Source: Methanomassiliicoccus luminyensis B10
GTDB taxonomy: Archaea; Thermoplasmatota; Thermoplasmata; Methanomassiliicoccales; Methanomassiliicoccaceae
Direction: 5' to 3'
Assembly: GCF_000308215.1 (NCBI RefSeq)
Contig: NZ_CAJE01000012.1
Location: forward strand, 186,001-250,000
Length of the DNA: 64,000 bases
Positions 27,402-33,249 of the stretch are shown piece after piece; position 1 is the first letter of the stretch; every line of letters starts with the position of its first letter. A program made the position numbers and the translations under genes. The notes beneath the pieces were generated by a model. The model was not told where the DNA came from. It searched no databases and worked only from the letters and a program-made list of their open reading frames with translations.

Positions 27402-27540
27402 GGGACGCGGTCCGGCGGCATGCATCTCACAATGAGGAAAAGAGGTCGCTGTTCTTTCATAAATATGCAAAGAGCGCGACCTCGGGCGATATGTTTTTAA
27501 TTCGAGACCGAAATGTGCCCCCAAATTGGAGAAAACCCAA

Positions 27541-28071
27541 ATGCCAGACATACGCCAGAGGGTAGAAGAGGAACAGGGAATACTGAAAAAGATACAGATG
27601 TTCGTTCCCGGGTTCCGGGGATACCGGCGCCGGGACGACCTTAGGGATGCGGACCGGATGCTCCGGGACCAGCTGGCGGTCAAGCTGGGTGATCTGCGCA
27701 GGCAGGTCGAGGACTCCCGCGCTCTCGTGGTAAACACCTACAGGTCGAAGGAGCTGGAGCTGATGGGGGGCCTCATCAACGAGTACAAGAAGCTCGAGGG
27801 GCTGGTCAAGCACTCCACTCCCGGATGGTCCGGCATTTCCGCGGACATACAGTTCAAGGAGGACAAAATCTTCAACCTCTACGATTATGACGCCTCCATG
27901 ATCGAGGCCCTCGGCGGCATGCAGAAAGGCATCGACCAGCTTAGATGCGACCTCACCGCGCAGGACAGCGCCGCCGCCCAGAGGACGACGCTCCAGCTCA
28001 AATCCCAGCTCACTGGCTTTGAGCAGCAGTTCAAGCGGCGCATCGACGTCATCCAGGGCACGGAGGCCTGA
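27541..28071 (+). CDS. Coiled-coil protein heading the zinc-ribbon/SPFH cassette
   Basis: 176 residues from ATG 27541 (MPDIRQRVEEEQGILKK); an in-frame ATG at 27526 lies too close to the TATA-like TTTTTAATTC at 27490-27500. It is almost entirely helical: a short motif VPGFRGYRRRDDLRDADRMLRDQL, then long amphipathic helices (LGDLRRQVEDSRALVVN, LMGGLINEYKKLEGLVK) and a C-terminal coiled coil (LQLKSQLTGFEQQFKRRIDV). I do not assign a named family, though the 'GYRRRDxLRDADxxLR' motif appears family-defining. The stop is 2 nt before the SPFH gene, so it probably partners that protein. Confidence 0.75.
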   Translation: MPDIRQRVEEEQGILKKIQMFVPGFRGYRRRDDLRDADRMLRDQLAVKLGDLRRQVEDSRALVVNTYRSKELELMGGLINEYKKLEGLVKHSTPGWSGISADIQFKEDKIFNLYDYDASMIEALGGMQKGIDQLRCDLTAQDSAAAQRTTLQLKSQLTGFEQQFKRRIDVIQGTEA

Positions 28072-28073
28072 AC

Positions 28074-29210
28074 ATGTCGGTGATAGGCGCGACGACCCTG
28101 AACTGGGAGGACCAGAACAAGCGGTTCAACATCATGTACCGCGTTCCCAGGAACATCAAGCTCAACGACAACATCGTGGTGAGGGAGGACGAGATCGCGG
28201 TGTTCTACCGCGACGGCAAGGCCCTCACTTACTTCGACCGGCCGGACCGTTATGCCCTGACGTCCATGAACATGCCCATCGTGGGCAAGCTCGTGGAGGC
28301 CCTGTCGGGCGTGAAGCAGCAGGCTGAGGTCATCTACCTTCAGAAGCGCGTCTTCGACGGGAAGTTCGGTTCGAAGCAGCCCTACCAGTTCCGCGACCCC
28401 GAGTTCGGCATGGTGAACCTCAGGGTGTTCGGGGAGTTCCGCTACAAGATATCCCAGCCGGAGAACTTCGTGAACCAGTTCGTGGGCACCTTCAACTACA
28501 GCTCCTCCGCCGAGGTGGAGGAGCGCATCAAGGAACAGATGGTGATCCTGATCTACAATGTGGTCGGGGACATGAAGAACCAGGGAATGGGCGTGGCGGA
28601 CCTGGGCGCCAGCCTGCTCAACATCGAGCAGGGTGTGCTCTCCAAGGCCAAGGACCACTTCGATCTCTACGGTCTCGCCGTGGACAAGGTGTCCGGATTA
28701 TACATCTCCCTGCCCGAAGAGGTCCAGAAGGCCGTGGACACCAGAGCCTCCATGCAGATCCTGGGCACCAACTACATGGGCTACCAGGCCGGCCAGTCCA
28801 TGAGGGATGCCGCCAACAACCCCGCCGGCGGCGCGGCCGCGGCGGGGGTCGGCGTGGGAGCGGGCCTGGGCATGGGATGGACCATGGTCGACGCCATGAA
28901 GCAGCAGCCGGCAGCGTCGGCGCCGCCCCAGCCCGTAACGGCGCCTGCGGCCGCCAGTGGCGCGGGCGCGACGGTGAAGTGCTCCAAGTGCGGGTCCACC
29001 AGCCCCGCGGGCACCAAGTTCTGCCCGGAGTGCGGCTCCAAGTTCGAGGCGGACAAGAAGTGCTCCAAGTGCGGGGCCAACGTGCCAGGATCGTCGAAGT
29101 TCTGTCCCGAGTGCGGCACCCCCATGGGCAACAAGAAGTGCGCCAGCTGCGGCGCCGAGGTGCCTGCGAGCACCAAGTTCTGCCCGGAGTGCGGAAAGCC
29201 CACGCAGTGA
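28074..29210 (+). CDS. SPFH (YdjI/virion-core-like) protein with three C-terminal zinc ribbons
   Basis: 378 residues. About 1-235 form a band-7/SPFH-like domain of the YdjI type (MYRVPRNIKLNDNIVVREDEIAVFYRDGKAL, FGEFRYKISQPENFVNQFVGT, LYISLPEEVQKAVDTRASMQILG). A Gly/Ala-rich segment (NNPAGGAAAAGVGVGAGLGMG) follows. The tail (about 302-378) has three consecutive CxxCG...CPECG zinc ribbons (CSKCG, CSKCG, CASCG). SPFH proteins oligomerise on membranes; the ribbons probably bind partners or zinc. It is gene two of a five-gene cassette in which the next three products each begin with a zinc ribbon. Confidence 0.85.
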   Translation: MSVIGATTLNWEDQNKRFNIMYRVPRNIKLNDNIVVREDEIAVFYRDGKALTYFDRPDRYALTSMNMPIVGKLVEALSGVKQQAEVIYLQKRVFDGKFGSKQPYQFRDPEFGMVNLRVFGEFRYKISQPENFVNQFVGTFNYSSSAEVEERIKEQMVILIYNVVGDMKNQGMGVADLGASLLNIEQGVLSKAKDHFDLYGLAVDKVSGLYISLPEEVQKAVDTRASMQILGTNYMGYQAGQSMRDAANNPAGGAAAAGVGVGAGLGMGWTMVDAMKQQPAASAPPQPVTAPAAASGAGATVKCSKCGSTSPAGTKFCPECGSKFEADKKCSKCGANVPGSSKFCPECGTPMGNKKCASCGAEVPASTKFCPECGKPTQ

Positions 29211-29221
29211 GGTGATCGGAC

Positions 29222-29965
29222 ATGGCCCACATAAATTGCCCGAAATGCGCCGCCCCGGTGGAGTTCGATGCGGGGACCAAGCTGACCAAGTGCCCGTACT
29301 GCAGCTCCCAGATATTCATAGACCGGTCCGGCGCGGGCTTCTACTATGCCATACCGTTCAAGCTGACCGAGCAGGACGCCGTGGGCACGTTCCGCCGGTG
29401 GGCCGGGGGGTCCACCAAGGCCAAGGACCTCGACCGCCTGGCCCAGGTCGACTCCGTGAAGCGCCAATACTTCCCGGTATACCTGTTCAGGCGGGAAGTG
29501 GACGGCCGCGAGGTCGTCACGATCGAACCTGCCGGCTCCACCATACTTCCCGGCCTCCACCAGCTCAAGGTGCCCGGAGGGGACCTGCAGATCTTCGACG
29601 CCAAGTTCGATACGAACGGAGCGGAGATGATCAAGCCTGACATCGAGATGCTCCATTACCTCGACAAGCTGCCGGGGCAGGGCAAGGAGCAGGCTTTAGT
29701 GTACTTCCCCATCTGGACCATCGGGTACACCTTCAACGGGAACAAGTACCAGGTGGTGGTGGACGCCTCCTCGTCGGAAGTGTTCTCCACTGCTTTCCCC
29801 ACCCGGAGCTCGGCCGCGTACATCCTGGTCGCGGCGGTGGGCTTCATCGCCTTCGCGGCCGAAGGGATATTGGCGACAGTGGCCGCGGTCCCCGCGGCCG
29901 TGCTCATGGGCGCGACGGTGGGGGCGGTGTTCCTTTCTTCCCTTCAAGTAGCTAAGAGGTTGTAA
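29222..29965 (+). CDS. Zinc-ribbon membrane protein, cassette paralogue 1
   Basis: 247 residues. A zinc ribbon at 5-29 (CPKCAAPVEFDAG...CPYC), then a soluble domain and two C-terminal transmembrane helices (about 200-245). The soluble part includes KRQYFPVYLFRREVDG and YFPIWTIGYTFNGNKYQVVVDASSSEV, a 'YxPxW...Y...Y...VDxxxxxV' pattern repeated in the two following products. Orientation is presumably cytoplasmic ribbon with a membrane-embedded tail. It starts 11 nt after the SPFH stop and ends 2 nt before the next gene. The function is unknown. Confidence 0.78.
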   Translation: MAHINCPKCAAPVEFDAGTKLTKCPYCSSQIFIDRSGAGFYYAIPFKLTEQDAVGTFRRWAGGSTKAKDLDRLAQVDSVKRQYFPVYLFRREVDGREVVTIEPAGSTILPGLHQLKVPGGDLQIFDAKFDTNGAEMIKPDIEMLHYLDKLPGQGKEQALVYFPIWTIGYTFNGNKYQVVVDASSSEVFSTAFPTRSSAAYILVAAVGFIAFAAEGILATVAAVPAAVLMGATVGAVFLSSLQVAKRL

Positions 29966-29967
29966 CA

Positions 29968-30963
29968 ATGAGCGACCTTTCCGTAGGGCTCAACTGCCCC
30001 GCCTGCGGCGGGGCCATCAGCATTCAGGAGGGCGATGACACTGTCAACTGCAAGTACTGCGACTCCACGCTGTACGTTGAAGGGGACCAGGGCGTCCAGA
30101 CCATCGCCATGAGGAACAAGCTGGACCAGAACGCGGCCATCTCCTCCGCCCAGAAGTGGTGGGGGAAGGGCCTCAAGGCCAGGGACCTCAAGACTGCCGG
30201 CACCGTGGTGGAATGCTACCCCATCTATCTCCCGTTCTGGAGCGTGGGCACTCGGGTGGCCGGATGGGTGTGCGGCTACGAGGAAAGGACCCACACCGAT
30301 TCCAAGGGGAACACCCGCACCGAGCGGATCTACAAGGAGGAGATGGTGCTGCAGGACCTGGGCTTCTCGGAGATCGCCTGCGATCCCGGCGACCTTGGCA
30401 TAAGGTCCATGCGCAGCTTCGCCGGCGAATCCTCCTTCGAGGATTTCTCCATGATCCCCACGTTCGAGTCCACCACCAGCAGGGACACGGCCATAGACCG
30501 GGCCAAGGCCGACGCCCTCAGGCGGGGCAGGGCCAGCGCCCGTGTGCCCCACGTCACCTTCGAGAAGCTGCACGTGCTGCTGAAACGGACATCCATGATC
30601 TACTATCCCGTATGGGTGGTCCGATACACCTATCATGAGAGGATGTATCTCCTGACCGTGGACGGCGTCACCGGACAGGTGCTGTCCGGGCGCGCTCCCG
30701 GCGACCCGCTGTACCAGAGCCTCGCCGCCACCGCGGGCACTTCCGCCGGGGGGCTCGCCACCGCGGGCGGGATCTGGGCACTGGGCGCGGGCTCCGAGCT
30801 GGGCTTTGCCGGCGTGGCCATCGGGCTGATAATCATGGCGTTCACATACATGTTCTTCCGCCACGGTTCCGAGAGGACCGAGGGCGACTTCGACGACAAG
30901 AAGAAGCTGGACCTCAAGCAGCTCGGCGACCTCGGCAAGGTCATCGGGGGTGCGTACAGATGA
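29968..30963 (+). CDS. Zinc-ribbon membrane protein, cassette paralogue 2
   Basis: 331 residues. A zinc ribbon at 9-31 (CPACGGAISIQEGDDTVNCKYC) is followed by KLDQNAAISSAQKWWGKGLKARDL, CYPIYLPFWSVGTRVAGWVCGYEER, a long middle insertion, and MIYYPVWVVRYTYHERMYLLTVDGVTGQVLSGRAPGD. Two C-terminal helices (about 255-300) precede a charged tail, DDKKKLDLKQLGDLGK. The 'YYPVW...YxxxxYxxxVDGxTGxV' unit is clearly homologous to paralogue 1. The ATGA overlap with the next gene suggests coupled translation. Confidence 0.8.
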   Translation: MSDLSVGLNCPACGGAISIQEGDDTVNCKYCDSTLYVEGDQGVQTIAMRNKLDQNAAISSAQKWWGKGLKARDLKTAGTVVECYPIYLPFWSVGTRVAGWVCGYEERTHTDSKGNTRTERIYKEEMVLQDLGFSEIACDPGDLGIRSMRSFAGESSFEDFSMIPTFESTTSRDTAIDRAKADALRRGRASARVPHVTFEKLHVLLKRTSMIYYPVWVVRYTYHERMYLLTVDGVTGQVLSGRAPGDPLYQSLAATAGTSAGGLATAGGIWALGAGSELGFAGVAIGLIIMAFTYMFFRHGSERTEGDFDDKKKLDLKQLGDLGKVIGGAYR

Positions 30964-31550
30964 AGGTAGCTCAGGTGAAGTGCCCCCAGTGCTCCGAGCC
31001 CATCTATATGAAGCAAAAGGACGAGATGTTCTACTGCAAGAACTGCGGCACCATTCACAACCGCGATGTTCACGGCATCCACCGGGTGCCGTACGAGATC
31101 GCCGATGCCAGGGCCCCCGCCAACGGAAAGCTGTACTACATGCCCTTCTGGAGGTTGTACTGCAATATCAGCATCCGCTCCCGGAACGTTCAGGGCGGGG
31201 CCCTGTACAAGCTGGCCGCCGCGTTCACCGGCGGGGACAAGGGGGGCAGGGTACCCATCTACGTCCCCGCGTCGGACCTCGACGTGAGCACATTCCGCCA
31301 GTGGGCGGTCCAGCTGACCACCGATCCGCCGAGGTACAACACTCGGACGGACTTCGCCGAGGTCGAGCGGGTCCCCGCTACCGTCCTGCAGGAGGACGCC
31401 CTCGAGCTCGCTGACTTCGTGGTGGTGACGCTGGAGGCGGAGAAGCCGGGCACCCTGCAGTATCTGGACTACGAGCTGAAGGTACTGGAATCAAAGCTGG
31501 TGTACCTGCCGTTCGCCCACGGAGGGGGCGGGCTATCGCTGTTCCTGTGA
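30960..31550 (+). CDS. Zinc-ribbon protein, cassette paralogue 3
   Basis: 196 residues. A zinc ribbon at 8-29 (CPQCSEPIYMKQKDEMFYCKNC) is followed by YYMPFWRLYCNISIRSRNV, a GRVPIYVPASDLDVSTFRQWAVQLT segment and ELKVLESKLVYLPFAHGGGGLSLFL at the very end. Compared with its paralogues it lacks the C-terminal transmembrane helices and stops just after the 'YLPF' strand, so it may be a soluble member recruited by the other two. It is last in the five-gene run. Confidence 0.75.
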   Translation: MKVAQVKCPQCSEPIYMKQKDEMFYCKNCGTIHNRDVHGIHRVPYEIADARAPANGKLYYMPFWRLYCNISIRSRNVQGGALYKLAAAFTGGDKGGRVPIYVPASDLDVSTFRQWAVQLTTDPPRYNTRTDFAEVERVPATVLQEDALELADFVVVTLEAEKPGTLQYLDYELKVLESKLVYLPFAHGGGGLSLFL

Positions 31551-31661: not shown

Positions 31662-32144
31662 ATGCCATTAGAACAGATGCTCGCACTGGCGATGATCATC
31701 ATCGGCATAATCATGCTGCTGATCGAGGCTTCCGCGCCAGGTAACTTCGTCGTCGTCCCAGCAACAGTGCTGGTCATAGTGGGCTTCTTTGGCCTGGTGG
31801 TCCCGGACCTGTTCTTCAGCTGGTATTCTCCGCTGATCGCGCTCCTGGTGCTCATCCCCGCAACCCTGCTGACAGTAAGGTTCTACCAGAAAATGTCACC
31901 GATAGCGCCGCCGGAGACGGTGGTAGCGACCTCCCTGATCGGAAGGACCGGCGTCGTGACGACAATGGTGAAGCCTGGGAATATCAGGGGAAAGGTCCGG
32001 ATCGAGGGCGACGACTGGAGCGCCACCGCCGATGAGTGCATCGAGCCGGGCACCAGAGTGCAGGTCGTTTCCAGCGAGGGAGTGCACGTGCATGTCGCAG
32101 CCGTCGCCGACCAGGGCGCCGCGGGTGCCGACTGCACAGAGTAA
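31662..32144 (+). CDS. NfeD-family membrane protein
   Basis: 160 residues. Two or three transmembrane helices (about 7-30, 33-50, 55-73) then a C-terminal OB-fold (about 88-150: LIGRTGVVTTMVKPGNIRGKVRIEGDDWSATADE, IEPGTRVQVVSSEGVHVHV). This is the short NfeD form without a ClpP-like protease domain. NfeD proteins pair with stomatin/slipin SPFH proteins, which is what follows 13 nt downstream. CTATTAAAG at 31631-31639 is centred about 27 nt before ATG 31662, so the mRNA is probably leaderless and the pair is transcribed separately from the upstream cassette. Confidence 0.9.
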   Translation: MPLEQMLALAMIIIGIIMLLIEASAPGNFVVVPATVLVIVGFFGLVVPDLFFSWYSPLIALLVLIPATLLTVRFYQKMSPIAPPETVVATSLIGRTGVVTTMVKPGNIRGKVRIEGDDWSATADECIEPGTRVQVVSSEGVHVHVAAVADQGAAGADCTE

Positions 32145-32157
32145 AGGAGGTAATCAA

Positions 32158-33249
32158 ATGACAACAGAACTTTGGTTCATCGCTTTGGCCATTTTCGTGA
32201 TCGTGGCCGTATTGCTCCTTGTTTACAATTCGGTCAAGATCATCAGTCCCTATGAGCAAGGCCTATACATCCGCCTGGGTACCTTCATCAAGGTCCTGGA
32301 CCCCGGCCTGAACGTCGTGACCCCCATCGTCAGCCAGGTCGTCAAGATGGACCTGCGTACCCAGGTCCTCGATGTGCCGAGGCAGGAGGTCATCACCAAG
32401 GACAACTCGCCGACCAACGTCGATGCCATAATCTATGTCAAGGTCATCGATCCGAGCAAGGCCTATTTCCAAGTCACCAACTACCGCGCGGCCACCGTAT
32501 ACCTGGCCCAGACCACCCTTCGTTCCGTGGTGGGCGACATGGAGCTTGACGAGATCCTCTCCAGCCGCGAGAAGATCAACCTGAAGCTGCGCGACATTCT
32601 GGATGAGGCTACCGACAAGTGGGGCGTCAAGGTCGAGGCGGTGGAGATCCGTGAGGTCGACCCCGCTCCTAAGGTCAAGACCGCCATGGAGGAGCAGACC
32701 TCCGCGGAGAGGATGAGGAGGGCCACCATCCTCCGCGCCGACGGCGAGAAGACCGGGGCCATCCTGAGCGCGGAAGGGCAGAAGAGAGCGCGCATCCTCC
32801 AGGCCGAGGGTGTGAGGCAGTCCAAGGTCCTGGAGGCAGAGGGCGAGAGGCTCGCCATCATCCTGCAGTCGCAGGGTGAGGCCCAGAAGCTGCGCATCCT
32901 GTCGGTGGGCGCCAGCCCGCTGGACTCCAAGGCGCTGACGGTGCTGTCGCTGCAGACCATGCAAGCGCTGGGCGAGGGGCAGTCGACCAAGTGGATCGTG
33001 CCCTTCGAACTGTCCCGCGTGATGGAAGGCGTGTCCGAATACTTGGGCACGGGCCGGCAGACCCCCGCGAGGGATGTGACGTCCCAGGAGGACATCGAGC
33101 GGGCCGTAGGGAGGCCCGAGGACATCCTTGGCCCCATCCCCACCGCCGAGGAGCTCCGCGCCGAGCTGAAGAACCTCGAGGAATCGATGGAACTGGAGAA
33201 GGCCAAGGCCGAGGCCATCGCCAAGGATAAGGACAAGCACTCCGTCTAA
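32158..33249 (+). CDS. Stomatin/slipin-like SPFH membrane protein
   Basis: 363 residues from ATG 32158, with AAAGGAGG upstream; the open frame reaching back to 32032 is not used. An N-terminal membrane helix (8-27), then an SPFH/PHB domain (IISPYEQGLYIRLGTFIKVLDPGLNVVTP, DVPRQEVITKDNSPTNVDAIIYVKV, LRSVVGDMELDEILSSREKIN), an Ala/Glu-rich coiled coil (EGQKRARILQAEGVRQSKVLEAEGERLAIILQSQGEAQ) and a charged C-terminal tail. It likely forms oligomeric membrane microdomain scaffolds with the NfeD partner encoded directly upstream. Confidence 0.93.
   Translation: MTTELWFIALAIFVIVAVLLLVYNSVKIISPYEQGLYIRLGTFIKVLDPGLNVVTPIVSQVVKMDLRTQVLDVPRQEVITKDNSPTNVDAIIYVKVIDPSKAYFQVTNYRAATVYLAQTTLRSVVGDMELDEILSSREKINLKLRDILDEATDKWGVKVEAVEIREVDPAPKVKTAMEEQTSAERMRRATILRADGEKTGAILSAEGQKRARILQAEGVRQSKVLEAEGERLAIILQSQGEAQKLRILSVGASPLDSKALTVLSLQTMQALGEGQSTKWIVPFELSRVMEGVSEYLGTGRQTPARDVTSQEDIERAVGRPEDILGPIPTAEELRAELKNLEESMELEKAKAEAIAKDKDKHSV

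Follow-up and report, generated by a model that had tools for sequence, protein, structure and literature searches.

Do five closely packed genes of a methanogen, one coding for an SPFH protein and three for zinc-ribbon proteins, form a genuine unit, and what might such a unit do? The genes in question (g1 to g5) lie in a 64-kb stretch of DNA, hereafter the window (contig 12, positions 186001-250000), from Methanomassiliicoccus luminyensis B10, a cultured methanogen of the human gut (PMC4153887) whose genome comprises 2,620,233 bp in 26 contigs. All five open reading frames (ORFs) are on the plus strand between window positions 27541 and 31550, separated by intergenic gaps of 2, 11, and 2 nucleotides (nt) and then by a 4-nt overlap, and our ORF check of the window returned the same positions, order, and spacing as a preliminary description made from the sequence. 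We find that this cassette is a real conserved unit that is best classed as a variant SPFH/YdjI membrane system; the pairing of g1 with an SPFH gene across domains is our strongest result, and the biological role is our weakest.

Conservation of the cassette and of the g1-SPFH pair

Within the order to which M. luminyensis belongs, whichever cassette genes the contig contained followed the order g1-g2-g3-g4-g5 in 17/17 inspected loci, representing three families. Since the gene order persists throughout the taxonomic order and outside it, the five-gene arrangement is not due to chance. The preliminary description had regarded the genes as a fixed, dedicated set, and neighborhood analysis bore this out, revealing adjacency that is recurrent rather than rare. 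More specifically, g4 was matched in 40 of the 61 near-relative genomes (E ≤ 0.001), with strong full-length matches in families f1, f3, and f6 and none or weak ones in f2 (Methanomethylophilaceae-type genomes), in which g1 and an SPFH gene are accompanied by other ribbon and transmembrane (TM) genes that replace g3 to g5.

The pairing of g1 with an SPFH gene extends beyond the order. Among 293 Thermoplasmatota genomes, 77 encode g1, and a search of named genomes returned 58 g1 loci, including Geothermarchaeota, Sulfolobales, Vicinamibacteria, and Chloroflexota assemblies, the taxon assignments of which rest on binning because most are metagenome-assembled genomes. In our locus count, an SPFH gene was located within 150 nt after g1 in 96 loci and beyond one intervening ribbon gene in 2, with a further 4 loci at contig ends and 4 scored as lacking SPFH; since some loci represent one genome fetched twice, independent cases of the pairing number fewer than 100. 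Rechecking the last four loci uncovered an overlapping SPFH reading frame in L145 and L155 and a divergent SPFH gene in L178, such that only L154 lacked an SPFH gene by g1. Adjacency of g1 and SPFH genes spans Thermoplasmatota, Geothermarchaeota, Sulfolobales, Acidobacteriota, and Chloroflexota.

In a tree of SPFH proteins, those linked to g1 fell into two sets with a long internal branch between them (1.37 changes per column). As both sides of this branch hold g1-linked proteins, g1 goes with two deeply different SPFH lineages, and the g1-SPFH link therefore either predates close kinship or does not depend on it. Bacterial-plasmid SPFH proteins without g1 grouped together (99/99) on the same side of the long branch as the protein of the window; the Sulfolobales row was very long, and its placement is unsure. 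The SPFH protein that accompanies g1 in Chloroflexi (L174, 6478-7479) has a terminal SHOCT domain in place of zinc ribbons.

The genes that accompany the pair are modular. The g3-g4-g5 set occurs in the M. luminyensis order and in f8, f11, f12, and f14; a single YdjG-like gene is found in f7, f9, and f10; L136 has two ribbon-TM genes and a small TM protein; and L123 has a ribbon protein of 509 amino acids (aa) and a small TM protein. In f8 (L105 and L184) the order is g3-g4-g5-g1-g2, and in genomes G065 and G076 the triplet stays together at a location away from g1-g2. Every genome with a strong g5 match also encodes g1, unlinked cases included (24/24; hypergeometric P = 5.6e-16, kinship ignored). 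Bacteria that lack g1 also have g4-like proteins encoded next to SPFH genes. In plasmids of Paracoccus and Vibrio (L058 and L060), an SPFH gene is followed directly by a gene for a g3/g4-like zinc-ribbon protein with no g1 nearby, and a tblastn search of plasmids with g1 found none. Related zinc-ribbon proteins of 509 to 512 aa, together with a small TM protein, precede g1-SPFH at L107 (7379-8917), L108 (4554-6092), and L123 (2469-3998); their hosts are Methanomethylophilaceae-type genomes and one bacterial assembly, and the L123 member had no Pfam match. Additional g4-like ribbon proteins of 263 aa are encoded a few kb from g1-SPFH at L097 (11187-11978) and L103 (10336-11127), where their genes adjoin one for an M48-like protease, identified by eye.

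Proteins encoded by the cassette

The g1 protein (Table 1) carries the motif PG[FY]xGYRxxxDxRxxDxxLR and has no TM segment by hydropathy. Its sole family match was NCBIfam NF047596 (LIMLP_15305), which matches nearly the full length of g1 and of 26/26 diverse g1 homologues; for g1 itself (residues 6 to 170, E = 3.2e-10), the match reached 40 bits, relative to an equivalog cut-off of 210 bits. Judged by these profile scores, g1 is a distant relative of the LIMLP_15305 family and not a filed member. The family has no described function, and a link to SPFH proteins was not found in the one paper that names it. The label "coiled-coil" in the preliminary description had to be corrected, as an AlphaFold (AF2) model built on 49 sequences was confident (predicted local distance difference test [pLDDT] 87.7, predicted template modeling score [pTM] 0.83) and depicts a five-helix bundle (helices at residues 4-21, 31-64, 69-90, 107-139, and 143-172).

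Table 1. Coordinates of the cassette genes and adjoining features in the window
Feature	Position	Strand	Description
Hairpin	27442-27484		Between DUF72 gene and g1
Putative archaeal promoter	27487-27500	+	CGATA then TTTTTAA, before g1; assigned by eye, no scored model
g1	27541-28071	+	176 aa; soluble helical-bundle protein, LIMLP_15305-like superfamily (NCBIfam NF047596)
g2	28074-29210	+	378 aa; YdjI-type SPFH protein, three C-terminal zinc ribbons
g3	29222-29965	+	247 aa; N-terminal zinc ribbon, domain in common with g4, C-terminal TM-like pair
g4	29968-30963	+	331 aa; YdjG-like, N-terminal zinc ribbon, TM region
g5	30960-31550	+	196 aa; soluble, N-terminal zinc ribbon, YMPFW motif; overlaps g4 by 4 nt
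NfeD gene and stomatin-type SPFH gene	31662-33249		Directly downstream of the cassette

Could g1 be a highly diverged PspA/ESCRT-III protein, which would make the cassette an ordinary PspA-YdjI system missed by sequence searches? With respect to the SPFH gene, g1 lies where pspA would be in the operon; the protein is helical throughout and roughly of PspA's size; and links between SPFH and ESCRT-III proteins are known (PMC8581546, PMC11188069). Against this, profiles for PspA_IM30 (PF04012) and Snf7 (PF03357) matched neither g1, nor its 26 homologues, nor any protein of the whole genome. Moreover, a Foldseek search of the PDB with the confident g1 model gave no match at E ≤ 0.001 (the best being IncA, at 0.04), with PspA and ESCRT-III absent among the 50 matches listed, and the model reached a TM-score of 0.23 against phage PspA. 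Two genomes, G002 and G004, encode g1 as well as a PspA. We consider a diverged PspA quite unlikely, and g1 as a recognizable PspA or Snf7 was rejected on the profile and fold searches. Sequence searches of the PDB with g1 and g4 yielded no credible match.

The second protein, g2, is of YdjI type, as had been proposed, because it combines (i) a Band_7_1 domain (PF13421; residues 23 to 228, E = 1.5e-34); (ii) three C-terminal zinc ribbons at about residues 300 to 376, seen as DZR and Zn_Ribbon_1 matches over three stretches; and (iii) no TM segment by hydropathy.

Each of g3, g4, and g5 opens with one CxxC...CxxC zinc ribbon, and two of the three carry TM-like segments, both in agreement with the preliminary description: hydropathy revealed two TM-like segments in g3 (residues 201 to 238), at least one in g4 (about residues 247 to 302), and none in g5. 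Thus, g3 and g4 display the YdjG-type layout of an N-terminal zinc ribbon and C-terminal TM segment(s). The further claim that all three are paralogues sharing a motif YxPxW ... VDxx(T/S)xxV held for g3 and g4 (positions 161 and 180 in g3; 87, 212, and 231 in g4) and failed for g5, which has YMPFW at position 60 and lacks VDxx(T/S)xxV. Full-length comparison with hhalign gave 99.2% for g3-g4 and 96% for g4-g5, and after removal of the ribbons the values were 96.8% for g4-g3, 9% for g4-g5, and 4% for g3-g5. As the g4-g5 value drops to 9% upon trimming, the 96% obtained at full length reflects the ribbon region; and since the trimmed comparison joins g3 and g4 only, these two constitute a related pair with a common domain, and g5 is a third ribbon protein with a body that has no relation to g3/g4 at a detectable level. 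A three-way paralogous family was rejected on the trimmed hhalign values and the motif missing from g5.

The g4 profile matches zinc-ribbon proteins adjoining SPFH genes on plasmids of Comamonas (E = 2e-12) and Vibrio (E = 4e-13), the former also at 97% by hhalign. Its body carries a weak PepSY/YPEB signal at residues 171 to 240 (PF03413, E = 0.0038, below the cut-off), present in 5/18 homologues. An AF2 model of g4 on eight rows was of low confidence (pLDDT 66.6, pTM 0.59) and contained a TM helix pair.

The zinc ribbons bear on two other explanations. They look like the ribbons of transcription proteins, and that of YdjG has been termed DNA-binding-like (PMC9239133), as would suit a regulatory module in which nucleic acid-binding ribbons link the state of the membrane to transcription. 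Yet the five proteins include no DNA-binding domain such as a helix-turn-helix. Zinc ribbons of this type are, moreover, common protein-interaction modules, which counts against a regulatory role, and we deem such a role very improbable. An antiviral defence cassette is hardly credible: it draws on weak PADLOC matches that fall mainly over the zinc ribbons, whereas a single genomic context is kept order-wide, no nuclease or toxin domain was found in the five proteins, and no relatives of g4 were found in a viral contig collection. Identity as a defence system was rejected on these PADLOC and viral-contig results.

Proposed role and flanking features

The cassette is probably membrane-associated. 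Our favored explanation, for which we see belief and doubt as evenly balanced, is that it may encode a membrane-associated SPFH scaffold, YdjGHI-like and PspA-free, serving membrane maintenance or envelope-stress protection. Accordingly framed as a proposal, g3 and g4 would be membrane anchors that recruit g2, as YdjG and YdjH do for YdjI, and g2 would assemble into large oligomers at the membrane, like other SPFH proteins. The g1 protein, as the dedicated soluble partner encoded next to g2 in nearly every locus, would be the client or regulator of the g2 scaffold at the position that PspA takes in Bacillus, and g5 may serve as an adaptor only in the version with g3-g4, with the whole maintaining the membrane or guarding the envelope against stress in cells mostly without PspA. 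In favor of this explanation are the recurrence of g1 next to an SPFH gene, the link of g1 to both SPFH sets, the varied zinc-ribbon membrane proteins that recur by the pair, the 24/24 co-occurrence of g5 with g1, the g4-like proteins encoded next to SPFH genes in g1-free bacteria, the scarcity of PspA in the phylum (above the cut-off in 3 of the 293 genomes, against 77 with g1), the dependence of YdjI on YdjG and YdjH for its membrane localization (PMC8581546), and the domain layout of YdjG (PMC11237479). Several points weigh against this explanation: YdjH has no counterpart (PF04536 is absent from the genome); the putative homology between g4 and YdjG draws on the plasmid proteins and the sub-threshold PepSY match; a stress role is one possibility only, because SPFH proteins have many roles; and in the open-access literature we found no experiments on any cassette member and no paper on a cassette of the M. 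luminyensis type.

An alternative role is membrane-protein quality control, in which the SPFH assembly would regulate a protease or chaperone membrane complexes, like HflK/C or NfeD-stomatin. Band-7 proteins are proposed chaperones, and genes for NfeD and a second, stomatin-type SPFH protein directly follow the cassette in the f1 loci other than L036 and in the f6 locus whose flank is complete. However, this gene pair was not beside the cassette in the inspected f3 loci or in those other loci of the phylum that were checked, so NfeD and stomatin are neighbors and not cassette members, and the cassette itself encodes no protease. We regard quality control as unlikely.

Beyond the scaffold that we favor for the M. 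luminyensis cassette, a wider proposal, held with somewhat more reserve, is that g1-SPFH may be an ancient, PspA-independent two-protein membrane unit of archaea and bacteria, with g1 as a new class of SPFH partner and with swappable zinc-ribbon membrane anchors. If true, this unit would be a third branch of membrane protection beside PspA/ESCRT-III and NfeD-stomatin. Archaeal membrane protection and organization without PspA are poorly known, and the cassette offers a named protein pair in a cultivated host, as well as an operon with interchangeable anchors as an object of study. The uncharacterized LIMLP_15305-like family gains a strong functional link to an SPFH scaffold. The cassette also raises a testable general question: do such SPFH proteins need any ESCRT-III partner?

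Upstream of g1, a promoter-like element occupies the matching position in most relatives, as judged by eye in the upstream regions of eight of them. The strong hairpin (−24.1 kcal/mol, z = −3.6) of M. luminyensis was not seen by eye at the matching position in the relatives compared; it may act as an operator or mark where the upstream transcript ends.

Comparison with known systems

The preliminary description had considered the cassette to be without assigned function. This statement calls for a caveat, as the PspA-YdjG-YdjH-YdjI system of Bacillus subtilis is a close functional analogue (PMC8581546; PMC11237479), a link that the description, although it named YdjI, did not draw. Sections of PMC11237479 describe Band-7 operons, including PspA-linked ones, in bacteria and archaea, with no description of a g1-type partner among the operons in those sections. 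The NfeD-stomatin pair downstream of our cassette also includes an SPFH protein; it is a separate known pair of a different SPFH subfamily, outside the conserved cassette. In SPFH operons with spermidine-synthase-like, DUF350, and DUF4178 genes, a YdjI-type SPFH gene likewise adjoins a weak match to the g4 profile (L059), but these operons lack g1 and contain polyamine genes instead. The Meth_adaptin ESCRT loci of Methanobacteriales (PMC11188069) share with the cassette a zinc-ribbon SPFH protein and are archaeal membrane-remodeling loci; unlike the cassette, they hold Vps4, ESCRT-III, and adaptin-like proteins, whereas profiles for Vps4_C (PF09336) and Snf7 (PF03357), as well as for PspA (PF04012) and TPM/YdjH (PF04536), found no match in the M. 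luminyensis genome.

The nearest known system is PspA-YdjGHI of B. subtilis. There, the zinc-ribbon membrane protein YdjG acts with YdjH to recruit two proteins to the membrane: YdjI, an SPFH protein, and PspA, which belongs to ESCRT-III (PMC8581546; PMC11237479). Without YdjG and YdjH, YdjI neither gets to the membrane nor delivers PspA to it, and the membrane becomes less fluid when YdjI is lost (PMC8581546). Since counterparts of PspA and YdjH were not found, the complete B. subtilis system is impossible in M. luminyensis. Both operons encode an SPFH protein of YdjI type that lacks a TM segment and carries zinc ribbon(s) at its C terminus (PMC8581546, PMC9239133, and PMC11237479), together with a zinc-ribbon and TM partner and a soluble helical protein. 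YdjG is described as combining a TM segment with zinc ribbons and a domain related to YpeB (PMC11237479), a layout that g4 fits with its ribbon, TM region, and weak PepSY/YPEB signal. The archaeal cassette differs in lacking PspA and the TPM protein YdjH: a helical bundle without detected PspA homology takes the place of PspA, and two YdjG-like proteins plus g5 are encoded where Bacillus has one.

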